From Leuconostoc holzapfelii (GTDB lineage: Bacteria; Bacillota; Bacilli; Lactobacillales; Lactobacillaceae): DNA of 64,000 nucleotides. Below, piece by piece: positions 19,383 through 29,488 of the stretch. The stretch spans positions 1 through 64,000 of the forward strand of contig NZ_JAAXPO010000003.1 of NCBI RefSeq assembly GCF_012396485.1, given 5' to 3'. The translations under genes were made by a program, and so were the position numbers. Position 1 is the stretch's first letter. Every line of letters starts with the position of its first letter. Under the pieces are notes generated by a model that did no database searches, had not been told where the DNA came from, and worked only from the letters and a program-made list of their open reading frames with translations.

Positions 19383-22464
<3,082 letters not shown>

Positions 22465-22466
<2 letters not shown>

Positions 22467-22498
22467 AAGATGTGTTTTTATAACACATCTTTTTTTTT
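22465..22498. terminator. Bidirectional rho-independent terminator
   Basis: AAAAGATGTGTT (22465-22476) pairs with AACACATCTTTT (22482-22493), followed by more T. It ends the lac-gal operon and, read on the minus strand, the recombinase transcript. Confidence 0.9.
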
Positions 22499-22516
22499 CT
22501 GATTAAAATAGGTAAC

Positions 22517-23092
22517 TCATGCAGTTTGACTGGTTTGCCTAATTTTTTTGATACGCCTTTTTAAAGTTGAGAGACTGATCCCCGTTTTTTGGGCAATTTG
22601 TTGATATGAGAGACCATTTTCATGCAGTTGGCTAGCCGCTAAAATTTCCATATCGGAATAAGTCTCTTTACGCCCCTCGCGAAAGTGGGGGTTATGACGT
22701 CGGGCGTAAGCTTTGCCTTCTTGTGTCCGTGTCAAAATCAGATCGCGTTCAAACTGAGCAAAGGCTGAAAAAATGGTGAAGATCAGCTTGCCTGTTGGAC
22801 TTTCATCTATTAGGCCTAAATTTAAAATGTGAATGGCCACACCTTGATCAAATAAATGTTGCATCACTTCTAGTGCCTCATGAGTATTTCTGGCGAACCG
22901 ATCTAGTTTTGTCACCACAAGCATGTCGTGTGGTTGTAACGTTTTTAAAAGTTTTTCAAAAACCGGACGTTCGGTGGTTGTTCCGGTGTATTTTTCTTTG
23001 TAAATTTTGTCAACACCTGCTTGATTTAACTGCGCAACTTGGGCTTCGAGGTGTTGGCCTTCTGTGCTAACTCTAGCATAGCCGTATTTCAT
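22517..23092 (-). CDS. Small serine recombinase (resolvase/invertase family)
   Basis: The 191-residue protein has the catalytic domain of small serine recombinases: nucleophile Ser9 in YGYARVSTEGQ, active-site arginines in TKLDRFARN (Arg65, Arg68) and the dimer helix GKLIFTIFSAFAQFERDLI. A C-terminal HTH (about 157-181, LSYQQIAQKTGISLSTLKRRI) binds DNA. Enzymes of this size invert or resolve DNA between two short, partly palindromic sites. Just upstream of its start lie two inverted copies of such a site flanking the pilus control region, so I infer it is a DNA invertase acting there. No other transposon genes are next to it. Confidence 0.9.
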   Translation of the reverse strand: MKYGYARVSTEGQHLEAQVAQLNQAGVDKIYKEKYTGTTTERPVFEKLLKTLQPHDMLVVTKLDRFARNTHEALEVMQHLFDQGVAIHILNLGLIDESPTGKLIFTIFSAFAQFERDLILTRTQEGKAYARRHNPHFREGRKETYSDMEILAASQLHENGLSYQQIAQKTGISLSTLKRRIKKIRQTSQTA

Positions 23093-23139
23093 ATTATCAT
23101 TCCTTTATTTATTTGATAACTTTTCCAAGACGCAAAAAA

Positions 23140-23165
23140 GGTTCGCAACTCGAGAGATGCGAACC
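23140..23165. other. Left recombination site (inferred), also a terminator-like hairpin
   Basis: These 26 bp form two 12-bp half-sites around a GA centre (23152-23153); the half-sites match at 11 of 12 positions when one is inverted. This is the geometry of small serine invertase sites. The inner 14 bp (CAACTCGAGAGATG, 23146-23159) recur inverted at 23282-23295. Read on the minus strand, the GGTTCGCA/TGCGAACC stem is followed by TTTTTT, so it should also end transcription that heads for the recombinase gene. Confidence 0.65.
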
Positions 23166-23281
23166 AGACACTTTGATAAAAGAATTATATCACAAAGTTA
23201 ATTTAATTGCACATATAATAGTTATCTTGCATCATAATACGGAAAAAAAGGTAAAATTTTGGAATTTTTATTGTAGGGTTA
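23160..23281. promoter_or_regulatory. Putative invertible promoter segment of the pilus operon
   Basis: This is a 122-bp, very AT-rich stretch between the two inverted sites. Its best promoter element is an extended -10, TGATATAAT, on the minus strand (23184-23192), pointing at the recombinase and the hairpin at 23140-23165. On the plus strand TATAAT (23214-23219) and TAAAAT (23252-23257) exist but without good -35 boxes. Inversion would turn the stronger element toward the pilus genes. Confidence 0.55.
23184..23192 (-). promoter_or_regulatory. Extended -10 promoter element
   Basis: On the minus strand this reads TGATATAAT, an ideal extended -10 box. Only a weak -35 (TGCAAT or GTGCAA) lies at 16-17 bp. 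In the present orientation it faces away from the pilus operon. Confidence 0.5.
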
Positions 23282-23295
23282 CATCTCTCGAGTTG
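23282..23295. other. Right recombination site (inferred)
   Basis: CATCTCTCGAGTTG is the exact inverse of 23146-23159. The outer flanks diverge from the left site (about 8-9 of 12 positions match per half), so it does not form the same stable hairpin. Confidence 0.65.
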
Positions 23296-23365
23296 TGGCA
23301 CCAGAAATAACGGGGCTGACTTTGAAATAAAAGAACAAACGTTACTTAGGAGGGAGAGAAAGAAA

Positions 23366-26059
23366 ATTTATATCATAAAAACGAGGCGAGCTAAAAAGCG
23401 GCGATACCGTAGTTTTTTTGTGTTATGGATGAGTGTGTTGTGTATGTGTTTGTTACCATTTGGACAATCTGTGACTGCCGCAAATATTTTGCCAACGTAT
23501 CAAACGACGAACGCTGGCACCTCGCCGAGTCACGCTTGGACGATTCCAGGGCAACCGCAAGTGATTAATCATCAAGGTGGTTATGGTAGTGATGGGTGGG
23601 ATAATGTGACGCAATGGGATGGCGCTCCAGACAATACGGAAAATTCCTATCTTAAATTTGGCGGCAATAATACCAATCAGTCCGATTATCAAATTCGCCA
23701 ATATGCGCGTCAAACGGCGACACCCGGATTATTTGATGTTTTCCTGAATGTGAAGGGAAATAAACAAATGCAATCAAAACCGGTTGATGTTGTTTTAGTC
23801 ACTGATATGTCCGGATCAATGAATGCAAGCAGTAATGGTGGATTCGACCGCGTTTCCGCCGTGCGAAACGGGATTAAGAATTTTATGAAATCCATCAATG
23901 AAGCAGGTATTGGTGACTATGTCAATGTCGGTTTCGTTGGTTTTGCGGGTCAAGATGGACCGAATATATCAGGTATTCGAACGGAAAATATTGATCGCAT
24001 CAGTAATTCTAATCATGTTGATCGCATTAACCAGATACTTGCACAAGACTTTCAGAGTGGGACGTTTACCCAAAAAGGTTTGCGCGAAGGGCAGCGTATG
24101 TTGGCCAACGACCAAAGTTCAAATAAAAAGATGATGATTTTATTGACCGATGGTTGGCCCACCCAGTCTTACAAAGTGACCCAAGCACAAAAAAAAGACG
24201 GGCAAGTTATGGGCACAGCCTTCAGTCAAGAATGGGATTACCCAGGCATAAGTTCGCAATTTTGGCAATTTAACGGGAACCCGCCTTCATGGCAACAGCG
24301 ATCACCTAAGTCATATTCCGTAGATGGGCAAGAAATTCGCGACACTTGGGCTGGGACATTAGGTGAAGCTTATCTCATACGTGGTGCTGGGACTAAACTA
24401 CATGCTTTAGGCATTCAATTGGACAAAGATAGTGGTTACACAGATAACAATTCTGACACGTATTTAACAAAAACACAAGTGCATAATCGTATGGCTTTGA
24501 TGGCCTCGCCAGGTCAGTATCAAGATGCAAATTCCGTTGAAGATGTGGAGAACTACTTAGTCGAGCAAGTCAAAGATGTTACGAGTGAGTTTTACACAGT
24601 TAAAAATGGGACGGTGCATAATCCGATTGGCGAACAATTTACCTATGCAGATGCTCAGCCAGAGGTAACAAGCGTCGGGAAAGAACCAGTTGGCACTTTA
24701 CCGATTGTGACACGAGATGCGCAACAATTAGATGTTAAAGGCATTAGTTTAGGTAGAGACCAAGAGATCCAAGTTCATTACCAGGTTCACCTCAAAACAG
24801 AGGATCGTAATTTTCAACCTAACTTTTGGTACCAGGTGAGTGGAGAAACCACCTTTAAACCGACTGAAAAGAGTGGATCGGTGACATTCGGCGTCCCATC
24901 TGCCAAAGCTTCTGGCACCAAGTTTCAAGTGACAAAACAATGGATAGATGATATTGATCGGACAAAACGCCCTGACCAAATTCAGCTTGAAATTGGTCGA
25001 AAAGTGGCTGATCAGTTGACTGATTGGCGGGCGATTGGCCAATTAACCGCCGCTGATAATTGGCAAAAGATGTTTACAAAAGGCCTGCAGGACGGGCAAT
25101 CAGTCTGGCTGCCCGCTTACAACAACCAAGGCCAAACATTTGATTACCAAGTGTTAAATGAGCAAACGGCAAGTTACGTGACAAAGGTTGAGCATCAAGA
25201 TAATCAGGCAACCGTGATAAATTGCCAATATGGATTGTTGATTAATAAGGTTGTCGAAGGAACAACGTCGCCCGTAAAGGGCGCGAAATTTACCGTGTCA
25301 TCTAAAGATGGTCATCAGGTGTTTACGGTTGAGTCAGGGCAATGTCAGCTTTTGACGCCGGGCGACTATACTATTCAAGAAAGCCAGGCACCACTTGGCT
25401 TTAAGGCAGATAGTGCGACATTCCATTTAACGCTCACTTCGGATGGCCAGTGGTTAAGTGACGGACAAGCTATTTCAGCCACTACGCCTGAACCCGATGG
25501 CGATGGCTTAAAGGATGGTTTTTCAATTGCCAAAACATTGTCACACAATGCCAGTCAGACTAACGTCGTTCAATTAACAAAGAACAATCAAGTCAAGCCA
25601 TTCACATTGTTGGTTAAAAAGACTGATGCGCAAACAAGCTTGCCATTGGCGGGGGCACAGTTTGGGTTAAAGTCGCTTTCAGGTGATACCCTAATCCCGA
25701 ACACAAATCGAGATGCGACAGAGTTTACCTTTACACATTTAATGCCAGGCAGTTATACGTTGACTGAACTGCAAGCGCCAAAAGGTTACTTTCGTGCTGA
25801 ACCGGTCGTGATTACGGTCTCGCCAGATGGCCGAGCACAAGTGACTGGTGGGTCGAAACAATGGTCAACCACGTTAACAACCGATCAGGATGATAATCAA
25901 ATAACACTGCAAGTACCGAATCGGAATCAAGCGATCTTTCCAAAAACTGGTGGCGCTGGCCAATTACCATACTTTATTGTGGCAGGCTGTTTGGTTAGTG
26001 TAGGGTTCTTACTAAGTTCTGTTTACCAGCAGGTGCAACGTAGGAGGCAAGGTAAATGA
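23366..26059 (+). CDS. Pilus tip adhesin with VWA domain, LPXTG-type anchor
   Basis: A von Willebrand A domain with MIDAS motif DMSGS (Asp129 when counted from GTG 23420) covers about residues 120-400. Two SpaA/prealbumin-like repeats follow (KGAKFTVSS and AGAQFGLKS, with E-box TLTELQAPKGY), then FPKTG (840-844), a membrane segment and basic tail. It is the likely adhesive tip subunit. The start is odd. AGGAGG (23348-23353) points to ATT 23366, which would give a proper basic signal peptide (KTRRAKKRRYRSFFVLW). The only standard in-frame start is GTG 23420, with no ribosome binding site and no basic N-region. I annotate from 23366; 23420 is the conservative alternative. Confidence 0.8.
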   Translation: MYIIKTRRAKKRRYRSFFVLWMSVLCMCLLPFGQSVTAANILPTYQTTNAGTSPSHAWTIPGQPQVINHQGGYGSDGWDNVTQWDGAPDNTENSYLKFGGNNTNQSDYQIRQYARQTATPGLFDVFLNVKGNKQMQSKPVDVVLVTDMSGSMNASSNGGFDRVSAVRNGIKNFMKSINEAGIGDYVNVGFVGFAGQDGPNISGIRTENIDRISNSNHVDRINQILAQDFQSGTFTQKGLREGQRMLANDQSSNKKMMILLTDGWPTQSYKVTQAQKKDGQVMGTAFSQEWDYPGISSQFWQFNGNPPSWQQRSPKSYSVDGQEIRDTWAGTLGEAYLIRGAGTKLHALGIQLDKDSGYTDNNSDTYLTKTQVHNRMALMASPGQYQDANSVEDVENYLVEQVKDVTSEFYTVKNGTVHNPIGEQFTYADAQPEVTSVGKEPVGTLPIVTRDAQQLDVKGISLGRDQEIQVHYQVHLKTEDRNFQPNFWYQVSGETTFKPTEKSGSVTFGVPSAKASGTKFQVTKQWIDDIDRTKRPDQIQLEIGRKVADQLTDWRAIGQLTAADNWQKMFTKGLQDGQSVWLPAYNNQGQTFDYQVLNEQTASYVTKVEHQDNQATVINCQYGLLINKVVEGTTSPVKGAKFTVSSKDGHQVFTVESGQCQLLTPGDYTIQESQAPLGFKADSATFHLTLTSDGQWLSDGQAISATTPEPDGDGLKDGFSIAKTLSHNASQTNVVQLTKNNQVKPFTLLVKKTDAQTSLPLAGAQFGLKSLSGDTLIPNTNRDATEFTFTHLMPGSYTLTELQAPKGYFRAEPVVITVSPDGRAQVTGGSKQWSTTLTTDQDDNQITLQVPNRNQAIFPKTGGAGQLPYFIVAGCLVSVGFLLSSVYQQVQRRRQGK

Positions 26060-27144
26060 TTAAAAAAATAGTTATTTTTTTAATGAGTCTTTGTCTATTT
26101 GGCATGATAGGGTATCAGATTAATCGGCCAGTTGTTGCGCAAAGTCCAGTAACAGCGGAAATTACGTTGCAGCATCAAGTTGTCATTGCAGATCTAACGG
26201 TCAATCAATCCAATCAACGGACGAGGTTTGACTTATACGATATGTCACAATTAGCAGCCAAACATCGCCAAGAAGACAACTATTTTCAAACACTTAAAAC
26301 ACAGTCCCAGACAATTCAGACGGTCATCCAATCCGAACACTTAGTGTTAGTTGACTCGCAAGAAACGAACGATTCAGGTCAGCTTGTTTTTCACGCGCCG
26401 CAAGCGGCGGATAGAACCTATCTGATTGTACAGCGACAGCCTGAGTACTTGACCCAAAATGGGCAAATTTATCAAGCATTGGCTGACCCTACGGTCATGA
26501 AAATGTCTGATTACCTCGGGGTGGGACAGCAAAGTACGATTCAAACAAAGGCCACGATTTTAAAGCGACAGCCGTATTTTTTTAAGTACGGGCGTACACA
26601 AAATCAAGGCGAAAAGCCCTTATCAGGCGTGATCTTTGTTCTTTATCAAATGCGACAAGGAAAAAAGTACTATCTTACGCAATCGGGCGATTGGTGTGTC
26701 ACGCACACACCAAAGCAAGAGCAACGGGTAAAGAAAATTTTGTCAGATAATCAAGGCTTGGTCATGCTACATGATATTCAGTTACCAGCAGGACAATATT
26801 TTTTTGAAGAGGTTCAAACACAACCAAATTATCTCATATCACAAGCCGCACGCGCGATTGCGCTTGACGTGCCGGACTTGGGAGACGGGCACGTCCTACC
26901 AGCGATGCGGTTGAATGGCACGTCGCTATTGCAGACTGCAGCTGGTCAATTGCCAAATTCAGTGATGGCAACAGCACAACCGCGTGTTATGAATGAACAA
27001 AAACACCAACCAACACCAACGCAATTGCCAGAAACAGGGCAAGCCAAGGCGATGATGTCGCTGATTGGCTTGGTAATTTTAGTAATAAGCATGTTACTGT
27101 GCGCTGGGTTGTATAAAAAGAGAGGAATAAATCATGAAAAGTAG
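26056..27144 (+). CDS. Minor (basal) pilin, LPETG anchor
   Basis: The 362-residue secreted protein has a signal peptide (MIKKIVIFLMSLCLFGMIG...VVAQS), two Ig-like/prealbumin-type regions (AEITLQHQVVIADLTV; PLSGVIFVLYQM ... GQYFFEEVQTQPNY) and a C-terminal LPETG (324-328) with membrane helix and KKR tail. A small size, a canonical sorting signal and a position between tip and backbone genes suggest the basal subunit that anchors the pilus to the wall. Its ATG overlaps the tip gene's stop (ATGA), so translation is coupled. Confidence 0.85.
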   Translation: MIKKIVIFLMSLCLFGMIGYQINRPVVAQSPVTAEITLQHQVVIADLTVNQSNQRTRFDLYDMSQLAAKHRQEDNYFQTLKTQSQTIQTVIQSEHLVLVDSQETNDSGQLVFHAPQAADRTYLIVQRQPEYLTQNGQIYQALADPTVMKMSDYLGVGQQSTIQTKATILKRQPYFFKYGRTQNQGEKPLSGVIFVLYQMRQGKKYYLTQSGDWCVTHTPKQEQRVKKILSDNQGLVMLHDIQLPAGQYFFEEVQTQPNYLISQAARAIALDVPDLGDGHVLPAMRLNGTSLLQTAAGQLPNSVMATAQPRVMNEQKHQPTPTQLPETGQAKAMMSLIGLVILVISMLLCAGLYKKRGINHEK

Positions 27145-28648
27145 TATCTGGTCAAAATTGGCACACATTGGATTATTATTGCCAATTTTGATCGCCACAG
27201 TATTTAGTGCGATGCCGGTATTCGCCGATACAACGCCAAATACGGTAAACGTGACCCTACATAAACGGGTATTTGACACCGGACAAGTCCCAGCCGCCAA
27301 GGAGAATTCTGGGGTGGTTGACAATGATTTTGGTGGCGCACCTTTAGCAAATGTGACCTTCACAGCGTATGATGTGACAGCTCAGTATTTGCGTCTGCGT
27401 CAAGCAGGTCAAACAGCACAAAATGCTGTGGCAACAGTGCAACATGATGCACTGACAGCAGTGCCAAGCTATGCTACGAAATTGTCAGACGGTACAACGG
27501 GCAATGATGGGAATGTGACTTTTGCGAATTTAGCCGCTAAAGATGGGGATAAAGACAAGGTCTATTTGTTCTTAGAAACGAATTCGCCAACAAACATTAC
27601 TCAACGAGCAACACCAATTGTTTTAGCTTTGCCAGTCTATCAACCAGGATCAGATTCACAAGTGAACACAGATATTCACGTCTATCCTAAAAATGAACAA
27701 ACAAACGCCATTTCAAAGGATTTGACCACACAAAGTAAGTCAGATTTGACAGTGAAGTTAGCCGATGGCACATCAGTTTATAATGCCACAATTGGTCAAA
27801 CATTTAGTTATCAATTGCAAGTGGCTGTGCCTTGGAATATTCATGACAAAGCAACATTTAACGTCGTGGATACCCCTAATTTAGGGATTGATGACGCGGC
27901 AAGCACAGTTAAAATCAACGGTCTGGAGCAAGGAACTGATTATCAAATCGTGGCCACAGACGCAACGACAACAAATGGTAAAGGGTTTAAAATCACCTTC
28001 AATACAGAATCAGCCAATGTGCAAGCCACTGCCGGAAAACAGCTTAATATCACTTATGATGCAGTATTGACAAAGGCGGCAGTGGTTGATAAAGGCTTGA
28101 ACAACACGGCAACACTCACAATCGGAAATGGCTCAGCAATTACAACAACGCCAGTTACCGGACCAGAAATCTATACTGGTGGTGCATCATTTGTCAAAGT
28201 TGATAAGCAAAGTCAGGCAAAGCTTGCTGGGGCGGTCTTCCAATTGGTCAAGTTGGACAGCCAAGGCAATATCGTATCATACGCTAACCAAGCTGCTGAC
28301 GGATCATATCAGTGGGGGACAAGTGCCAACAAGGCAACTGCCTTTACGACTGATTCACAAGGCATGCTTAAATTGCAAGGTTTGACATATTCTGCAAAAT
28401 TGCCAAATAATCAACGCTATGCCTTGCTTGAAACGCAAGCGCCAACAGGTTATGCGCGATTAGCAAAGCCAGTAGCATTCAATGTGACGAAAGGAAGCTA
28501 TGCTAACGATCAAACAATTAGTATTGAAAACACCAAGAAAGGCTTGTTGCCAGCTACTGGTGGCGCAGGTATTTACGTCTTCTTAGGTCTTGGGTTGGTC
28601 CTCATGGCTGGCGCAGCTTGGTGGTACAAAAAGCATCAAGTCGCTTAA
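27134..28648 (+). CDS. Major (backbone) pilin, LPATG anchor
   Basis: The 504-residue protein has a signal peptide ending near VFADT (about residue 31). The pilin motif VYPKN carries Lys186, the residue that joins subunits. There is a D1-D2-type domain (about 200-340), a Cna_B/SpaA domain with E-box YALLETQAPTGY (Glu433) and a LPATG signal (472-476) followed by a membrane helix and YKKHQ. The presence of pilin motif, E-box and sorting signal together identifies the polymerising shaft subunit. It overlaps the minor pilin gene by 11 bp. Confidence 0.92.
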   Translation: MKSSIWSKLAHIGLLLPILIATVFSAMPVFADTTPNTVNVTLHKRVFDTGQVPAAKENSGVVDNDFGGAPLANVTFTAYDVTAQYLRLRQAGQTAQNAVATVQHDALTAVPSYATKLSDGTTGNDGNVTFANLAAKDGDKDKVYLFLETNSPTNITQRATPIVLALPVYQPGSDSQVNTDIHVYPKNEQTNAISKDLTTQSKSDLTVKLADGTSVYNATIGQTFSYQLQVAVPWNIHDKATFNVVDTPNLGIDDAASTVKINGLEQGTDYQIVATDATTTNGKGFKITFNTESANVQATAGKQLNITYDAVLTKAAVVDKGLNNTATLTIGNGSAITTTPVTGPEIYTGGASFVKVDKQSQAKLAGAVFQLVKLDSQGNIVSYANQAADGSYQWGTSANKATAFTTDSQGMLKLQGLTYSAKLPNNQRYALLETQAPTGYARLAKPVAFNVTKGSYANDQTISIENTKKGLLPATGGAGIYVFLGLGLVLMAGAAWWYKKHQVA

Positions 28649-28696: not shown

Positions 28697-29488
28697 ATGA
28701 CATTGGCAAAAGGTCGCCGACCATACTTATTGCGGTTGTTGTTTGCTGGCATTTTTATTCTTGGTTTTTTGGTTGCGACTTACCCATTTTATGTAGGCGC
28801 CATCAACCATTTTGTCGATCAGCAACGCTTATCAACATTATCACAACAAAAACACGCCTTTAAACAGCCGAGTCAACAAGGCCATAATGGTATCGTGGCC
28901 GAAGACCCATTTTCAAATGCAACCCCGAAACAACAAGTTGCGTTAAAGCAACAGTTAATTGGGAGTATCACAATTCCTAGCATTGCGTTGCACATCCCAC
29001 TTTTTAGTACCACCAACGATGTGACGTTAACATACGGCGCAACGGTGTTGCAAAATATGGATGGGCTATATGGTGGTGCTGGGACCCATTGCGTGATTGC
29101 AGGGCATCGTGGTCTGGCATCCAGAGTGCTGTTTACCAATCTTGATCGCGTGAAGTCAGGGGATATTGTCATTTTAAGCGTTGCGGGTAAAAAGTTAGCT
29201 TATCGAATTTTTGCGACGCAAGTTGTGCGACCAGCAGATTTTCAGGTGATTCAACGGCAGTCCAATCAAGATTTGCTGACACTAGTGACATGCACCCCGT
29301 ATATGATTAATTCACATCGGCTGCTTGTCACTGGCAGACGTGTGCCTTATCAACCAAATTTTCAGAAGAAAATGTCGCAAACGATCGAATCGGAGAATCT
29401 TAAGCAAGGTGGGGTATTACTTGTGATTGGCTTGGCACTTTGCCTACAAATTGCCTGGTTCTGGTGGCGTTGGCGTCAACAAGTCTAA
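28697..29488 (+). CDS. Class C sortase (pilus polymerase)
   Basis: The 263-residue enzyme has membrane segments at both ends (about 11-33 and 235-255) and the sortase barrel between them. Catalytic residues are His137 (AGHRG), Cys199 (LVTCTPY) and Arg208 (SHRLL). A DPF lid motif (70-72) before the barrel is the hallmark of class C pilin-polymerising sortases. It links backbone subunits through the YPKN lysine and LPXTG threonine. It is the last gene of the operon; final wall anchoring would need a housekeeping sortase elsewhere. Confidence 0.93.
   Translation: MTLAKGRRPYLLRLLFAGIFILGFLVATYPFYVGAINHFVDQQRLSTLSQQKHAFKQPSQQGHNGIVAEDPFSNATPKQQVALKQQLIGSITIPSIALHIPLFSTTNDVTLTYGATVLQNMDGLYGGAGTHCVIAGHRGLASRVLFTNLDRVKSGDIVILSVAGKKLAYRIFATQVVRPADFQVIQRQSNQDLLTLVTCTPYMINSHRLLVTGRRVPYQPNFQKKMSQTIESENLKQGGVLLVIGLALCLQIAWFWWRWRQQV

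Follow-up and report, generated by a model that had tools for sequence, protein, structure and literature searches.

The window analysed here is a 64,000-nucleotide stretch of the Leuconostoc holzapfelii contig NZ_JAAXPO010000003.1, in which a gene for a small serine recombinase and a sortase pilus operon, transcribed away from each other, are separated by a 327-bp gap containing an inverted repeat. This arrangement raises the question of whether the pilus is turned on and off by inversion of the DNA lying between the two, as a first-pass annotation of the same DNA had proposed. We consider it very likely that the adjacent recombinase flips a 138-bp segment bearing a single promoter, thereby switching the pilus operon between an ON and an OFF state. 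The proposal of an invertible promoter is supported, as both orientations of the segment were found in relatives: in one Leuconostoc genome (G008) as opposed to the window and a second Leuconostoc genome (G011), and on one plasmid (locus L135) as opposed to two others (L132 and L131). From these comparisons we infer that the segment can also invert in the window strain itself.

The site pair and its orientation in relatives

The sequence CAACTCGAGAGATG at 23146-23159 returned inverted at 23282-23295, with 100% complementarity and 122 nt between the copies, in agreement with the first-pass annotation. Exact inverted arms of 14 or more nucleotides arose in none of 300 first-order Markov reshuffles of 23093-23420 (maximum 13, mean 8.2), and the two window sites were the only matches to the 18-base pattern CACAACTCGAGAGATGNRA found genome-wide at 0-1 mismatches, one further match having 3 mismatches. 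The left copy lies within a dyad (23140-23151 and 23154-23165) pairing at 11 of 12 positions around a 2-nt GA centre, also as annotated, and the recombinase starts 47 bp away from this site (48 bp in the annotation). Inverted sites of 12-2-12 geometry with an asymmetric 2-bp centre are characteristic of Hin-type invertases, and the two window sites present that geometry, orientation and centre. A GA centre was found in 12 of 12 sites from six loci, partly by construction, since the search pattern and the site matrix already held GA.

A clean and precise inversion between sites of this type distinguishes two spaCBA-type plasmids, pCO44 of Lacticaseibacillus paracasei O44 (L135) and that of L. 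rhamnosus k32 (L132). Their flanks were 95.0% (60 bp) and 96.7% (120 bp) identical, and the segments between the sites were 97.1% identical when one was inverted versus 52.6% in direct alignment; the segment of the L. paracasei LC355 plasmid (L131) was 96.4% identical to that of L132 in direct alignment. On the k32 and LC355 plasmids, the site pair precedes a complete operon of genes for a tip pilin, two pilins and a class C sortase, and a recombinase 68% identical to that of the window is encoded 2.5-2.6 kb from the pair. Searching plasmids with the spaCBA-type segment returned 7 records, 3 of them with both sites intact (2 in one orientation and 1 in the other). The remaining 4 had lost the distal site, their segment being cut by an IS30-type insertion sequence (IS) end that left an operon-side remnant in the pCO44 orientation; the IS30 model was matched in the 2 of these 4 cut plasmids tested. 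When plasmids were searched with the segment of the window itself, all matches were short and at chance level.

Within the genus, 4 of the 19 genomes compared (that of the window included) matched the gap region at the DNA level and 3 held the site pair. G011 shares the window layout and orientation with 83% identity. G008 has the window layout too, but carries CAACTTGAAAGATG in both arms, that is, two matched changes per arm. Moreover, of its inner half-sites, the recombinase-side one (GATGTAATCC) is similar to the operon-side one of the window (GATGTAACCC), and the operon-side one (GATGCGAGCT) to the recombinase-side one of the window (GATGCGAACC). Among 20 segment alignments in all, G008 against the window scored 68.5 when inverted, a value reached by 9 of 500 shuffles, and 57.5 when direct (184 of 500), and G008 against G011 was equalled by 1 of 500 shuffles when inverted and by 417 of 500 when direct. 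Because the half-sites are swapped and the segment aligns when inverted and not directly, the G008 segment is very probably in the opposite position to that of the window. The first-pass annotation had named, as the pattern that would speak against its proposal, a non-inverting arrangement with diverged repeats in all relatives; what we found were repeats that co-vary and a segment whose orientation differs.

Across the family, 397 genomes were sampled; the pattern AACTYGARAG-(123-153)-CTYTCRAGTT occurred in 5 of them and a reversed-pattern control in none. Besides the three Leuconostoc genomes, the positives were Lapidilactobacillus luobeiensis (G193, L041), where the site pair is accompanied by the recombinase, a von Willebrand A (VWA) tip pilin, further pilins and a sortase, and Lacticaseibacillus chiayiensis (G146, L040), where the protein encoded after the pair is open-ended, at least 1428 aa long, and has collagen-binding and SpaA domains, the recombinase lying 1.8 kb from the pair. 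Two further L. paracasei plasmids were considered and rejected: pMGB0625-1 (L130 5845-12426), whose recombinase is divergent from a long SpaA-type adhesin with no recognisable inverted pair, and pLP1 (L133), which has one site only, beside its adhesin.

Decay of the system is common among relatives, and such cases would favour a switch that was once functional and is now frozen in the window copy, for instance through an inactive recombinase. L. lactis DSM 20202 (G010) lacks the segment and ~90 N-terminal residues of the tip pilin; in the Lacticaseibacillus genome G241 the recombinase gene holds an IS30 and the site has decayed; and the four cut spaCBA-type plasmids described above would belong here as well. 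In the window, by contrast, the recombinase has a complete open reading frame and the two 14-bp cores do not differ, and we regard a frozen copy as unlikely.

Candidate promoter and hairpin within the segment

The candidate extended -10 element TGATATAAT lies on the minus strand of the segment, 18 bp from the recombinase-side site, and faces away from the pilus genes, as previously annotated, which fits an OFF state. Since this element points at the recombinase, the deposited window copy looks OFF. In G008 an extended -10 with the same motif as in the window points toward the pilus operon (score matched by 4 of 200 shuffles).

The orientation of the segment also changes the predicted fold of the recombinase-side site, a point absent from the first-pass annotation. 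In the window as deposited, the minus strand of this site is predicted to form a hairpin whose stability was reached by 1 of 200 shuffles. Fold energies in the OFF and ON orientations, in kcal/mol, were -13.8 and -9.6 in the window, -13.8 and -10.3 in G011, and -16.7 and -2.9 in G008, the ON values of the window and G011 corresponding to a different fold and the window ON state having been generated by inverting the segment in silico. G008 as deposited is without such a hairpin (-2.9), and its inversion in silico creates one (-16.7) from different but complementary bases. The outer and inner halves of the site pair at 11 of 12 positions when OFF versus 7-8 of 12 when ON in the three genomes. 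The Leuconostoc recombinase-side site therefore looks like a terminator in the OFF orientation only.

A hairpin followed by a U-run on the minus strand, together with complementary arms, could also be taken for an RNA attenuator, in which the two copies would pair with each other in a single leader RNA, in competition with the terminator. We set this explanation aside because the best promoter candidate lies between the arms, at the said 18 bp from one of them, and its transcript would hold a single arm. It would, besides, leave the reversed segments of G008 and L135 unexplained, and we judge it extremely improbable.

In the proposed promoter inversion, the neighbouring recombinase would act on the two inverted 26-bp sites and turn the 138-bp segment with its one outward-facing promoter. 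With the promoter facing right, the pilus operon would be transcribed (ON). With the promoter facing left, as deposited (OFF), the transcript would at once enter the hairpin, with its 8-bp outer stem and U-run, and leakage past it would supply recombinase; such a source is suggested because the 47 bp between site and start leave little room for a separate full promoter. The switch would thus feed its own recombinase mainly when OFF, and a flip to ON would starve the system of the enzyme. The promoter is predicted to work, the hairpin to terminate and the leakage to yield recombinase.

Several observations weigh against this scheme. The window strain is represented by one deposited orientation, both being known from relatives. 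Hin-type inversion requires Fis, and 138 bp is short for it. No close copy of the recombinase was found on pCO44 (best 33%), so its flip, if recombinase-made, used an enzyme since lost or encoded elsewhere. The inverted alignment of G008 with the window is marginal and was one of 20 comparisons. As to the promoter, the window -35 is weak; the extended -10 of G011, likewise directed toward the recombinase, has a score that 11 of 200 shuffles matched; an opposite-facing candidate is present in G008 as well (matched by 26 of 200); and no promoter above shuffles was found in the Lapidilactobacillus and L. chiayiensis segments. A generic promoter and terminator scan listed neither the window promoter nor the hairpin; the -35 is weak, and the hairpin loop exceeds the limit of that tool. 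As to the terminator, the T-run after the G008 hairpin is interrupted (TTTTATATT), the operon-side site of the window also folds when ON (-13.3, with no U-run after it), and the other loci tested, those of Lapidilactobacillus and L. chiayiensis, showed no such terminator.

Silent and expressed SpaCBA pili

The operon downstream of the plasmid site pairs is spaCBA-srtC, known from the Lacticaseibacillus casei group. It resembles the window system in encoding a sortase pilus with a VWA tip, and on plasmids it is preceded by a site pair of the same type, around a segment that was found in both orientations. Plasmid pLCAKO.2 of strain IBB3423 (our locus L139) carries spaCBA-srtC, and its curing markedly reduced adhesion (PMC6717177). 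Expression of spaCBA has been ascribed to an IS-borne or constitutive promoter (PMC5536039, PMC6717177, PMC4240662, PMC3918159, PMC4102537), and the absence of pili in strains that carry spaCBA has been blamed on missing or IS-made promoters or on sequence defects (PMC6717177, PMC5536039, PMC3918159). According to a review, the expressed spaCBA promoter of E800 consists of TTGTTA and TATAAT; GG and LMS2-1 have similar elements, and none is obvious in the non-piliated BL23 (PMC5536039). For GG, a promoter possibly derived from an iso-IS30 element has been described upstream of spaC (PMC5536039; see also PMC4240662 and PMC3918159). The word stem 'invert' is absent from PMC5536039, PMC4102537 and PMC4240662.

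We found TTGTTA-(14)-TATAAT in 4 of 12 plasmid loci, directed toward the operon in pCO44 and L136 and away from it in L131 and L132. Because this element reads toward the operon there, the pCO44 orientation is probably ON. Two facts weigh against so simple an assignment: 14 is a short spacer, and the IS30 cut has removed TTGTTA from L137-L139 (IBB3423 among them), so that the IS may supply the -35 in these plasmids. As for chromosomal copies, six Lacticaseibacillus genomes had a SpaC match, and the surroundings were examined in four of them (G241, G270, G336 and G327; this count leaves out G370, G394 and a second G327 locus). Upstream of spaC in G241 the window layout persists in decay, with the operon-side site eroded and a segment unlike that of pCO44. 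In G270, G336 and G327, neither a recombinase match nor a site pair was found within ~10 kb. The promoter of GG may be a part of this switch that has become locked. As a separate observation, the recombinase gene upstream of the chromosomal spaC of G241 (L165 2977-4479) is split by an IS30, and this spaC has one internal TAG.

A broader joint reading, which we offer tentatively and regard as possible rather than probable, would be that the sortase pili of lactic acid bacteria, among them SpaCBA of the probiotic Lacticaseibacillus group, were ancestrally controlled by one family of recombinase-flipped promoters. Taken with it, and equally tentative, are two parts: that the Leuconostoc site would be a terminator when OFF, a single promoter feeding the recombinase when OFF and the pili when ON; and that a silent SpaCBA strain would have its switch in the OFF position or in decay, the activating IS30 insertions of piliated strains having locked the ON segment. 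Pili of a probiotic or food strain bear on mucus adhesion. A heritable flip switch, if true, would give a direct, PCR-testable reason for spaCBA strains without pili; a culture could then be a mixture, and the phenotype of a strain would depend on its handling. A recombination site doubling as a one-orientation terminator would, if true, be a compact design.

The recombinase, known switches and the pilus operon

With a resolvase catalytic domain and a C-terminal helix-turn-helix (HTH) in ~190 aa, the window recombinase has the make-up of small serine invertases, and it would be the enzyme performing the inversion. It aligned, RVST serine motif included, with the Tn3 resolvase 5cy1 and the DNA-invertase 4m6f, with the latter over residues 2-180; this cannot part the two classes because the Tn3 resolvase scores slightly above 4m6f. 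Tn3-type res sites are directly repeated, contain subsites and serve to delete cointegrates; the two close sites of this genome stand inverted, and a Tn3-type resolvase with a res site was rejected. Membership of the Mpi family (NF009949) was likewise rejected, the score being 63.2 bits against a curated cut-off of 272.

A site matrix was trained on the five pattern-positive loci and applied to 75 other relatives, near-copies among them. In 46 of these it detected a site no more than 220 bp upstream of the recombinase gene, against an expected 0.004 per locus; such sites therefore belong with this recombinase family. This also lends itself to another view, in which the sites would be recombinase operators or remnants of plasmid resolvase res sites, bound for autoregulation and no longer recombined. 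Many relatives of the recombinase are encoded on plasmids, and L. inhae and L. rapi have retained it next to recG, where the 16 kb compared showed no pilus gene and no site was recognised upstream of it. The inverted pair with matched changes in both copies, the reversed G008 segment and the precise inversion on spaCBA-type plasmids speak against this view. So does a quick tree in which 89 recombinases gave 70 distinct rows (that of L. rapi left out). A branch with SH-aLRT 95 set apart 57 rows that have no known switch; the other 13 rows comprised every one of the 7 switch-linked recombinases, those of L. lactis and L. inhae that lack a site, and four distant rows. The switch label needed 4 changes on this tree, which 0 of 500 shuffles reached. 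We consider operators or res remnants improbable.

The invertible promoter is a known kind of switch, and the closest precedent that we found is that of SZO08560 in Streptococcus zooepidemicus H70, a promoter of ~115 bp bounded by short inverted repeats next to a recombinase gene, for which five reverse-orientation reads and a 44-fold excess of forward over reverse RNA were reported (PMC2654543). It resembles the window in having the promoter segment upstream of an LPXTG surface protein and a neighbouring recombinase, and differs in serving a single surface protein, with no pilus operon, and in its 10-bp repeats, GTAGACTTTA, of other sequence (PMC2654543). The passages of that paper on the switch mention no orientation-dependent terminator and leave the recombinase type unstated (PMC2654543). 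The small serine invertases Hin, Gin and Pin share the recombinase family and the inverted 12-2-12 sites; unlike theirs, the window recombinase lies outside the segment, which is 138 bp long and would control a promoter rather than tail fibres. No enhancer was identified at the window switch, none having been searched for. Mpi of Bacteroides fragilis is also a serine recombinase that inverts segments governing surface structures, in its case polysaccharides, but it acts on at least thirteen regions (PMC5903667) versus one site pair in the window genome. Pil1 of Streptococcus gallolyticus is a phase-variable sortase pilus as well, but it depends on leader-peptide length and attenuation, no inversion being described in the citation of it in PMC5536039. 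We found no described invertible promoter for Leuconostoc or lactobacillar pili among the open-licence papers searched. New here are a probable pilus or adhesin switch common to lactic acid bacteria and a putative orientation-dependent terminator in Leuconostoc, together with a possible reason why some SpaCBA pili are silent and others expressed.

The gene order in the window is lacZ, recombinase (minus strand), the gap, the plus-strand pilus operon, recG and mutS, the names lacZ, recG and mutS being read from the translations. The closest named relative of the window recombinase is that of L. lactis DSM 20202 (93% identity). The complete pilus operon that had been annotated beyond the switch is borne out, as its tip pilin, second pilin, backbone pilin and class C sortase are all open frames (Table 1). 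An Rfam search of 22400-23600 gave five matches, with E values up to 5 and none close to its gathering score.

Table 1. Coordinates in the window of the predicted switch and of the genes flanking it.
Feature	Position	Strand	Evidence
Small serine recombinase, 191 aa, proposed invertase	22517..23092	-	PF00239 133.8 bits, HTH_7 35.8 bits
Six-T run immediately past the hairpin (seven T in G011)	23134..23139	-	Sequence
Recombinase-side site, 12-2-12; minus-strand hairpin with 8-bp outer stem, terminator-like in the deposited orientation	23140..23165		z -3.1, -13.8 kcal/mol
Predicted crossover centre GA, left site	23152..23153		Dyad geometry; analogy with serine invertase sites
Predicted invertible segment of 138 bp between the two centres	23152..23289		Site pair; analogous plasmid inversion
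Candidate extended -10 TGATATAAT, pointing to the recombinase	23184..23192 (23192-23184)	-	Score matched by 4/200 shuffles
Weak -35-like hexamer GTGCAA, 17-bp spacer	23207..23212	-	Promoter scoring
Operon-side recombination site, poorer dyad, same core	23276..23301		Inverted-repeat analysis
Predicted 2-bp crossover centre, right site (TC on +, GA on -)	23288..23289		Inverted-repeat analysis
Likely ribosome-binding site AGGAGG of the pilus operon	23348..23353	+	Sequence
Tip pilin (VWA, GBS104-like Ig, Cna_B, SpaA)	23420..26059	+	Domain matches, open frame
Second pilin, SpaA domain and LPETG sorting signal	26056..27144	+	Domain matches, open frame
Backbone pilin, SpaH/EbpB family	27134..28648	+	219.8 bits against a cut-off of 95
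Class C (pilin) sortase	28697..29488	+	188.8 bits against a cut-off of 160

The frame of the tip pilin stays open upstream of its listed GTG start (23366-23420), with an in-frame ATT at 23366, 12 nt past AGGAGG. This ATT may be a rare true start, because the residues it would add (IYIIKTRRAKKRRYRSFF) make a basic n-region of a signal peptide. Among the relatives, the tip pilin of G011 (L123 7896-10677) is broken into two ORFs in different frames, and G008 (L122 10274-12581) has one pilus operon with two sortases, of 392 and 379 aa, both with a C-terminal extension weakly resembling a SpaA domain, under the Pfam cut-off. The pilus sortase of Lapidilactobacillus is also long (L041 1161-2273; 370 aa), its C-terminus extending past the sortase domain. 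Finally, a second recombinase, 61% identical, is present at L001/L024 (G000 contig C8, 11,896 bp), where it adjoins an IS30-like transposase (recognised by eye) and has an upstream site of the AACTNNNNAGTT type; it is likely a plasmid resolvase.

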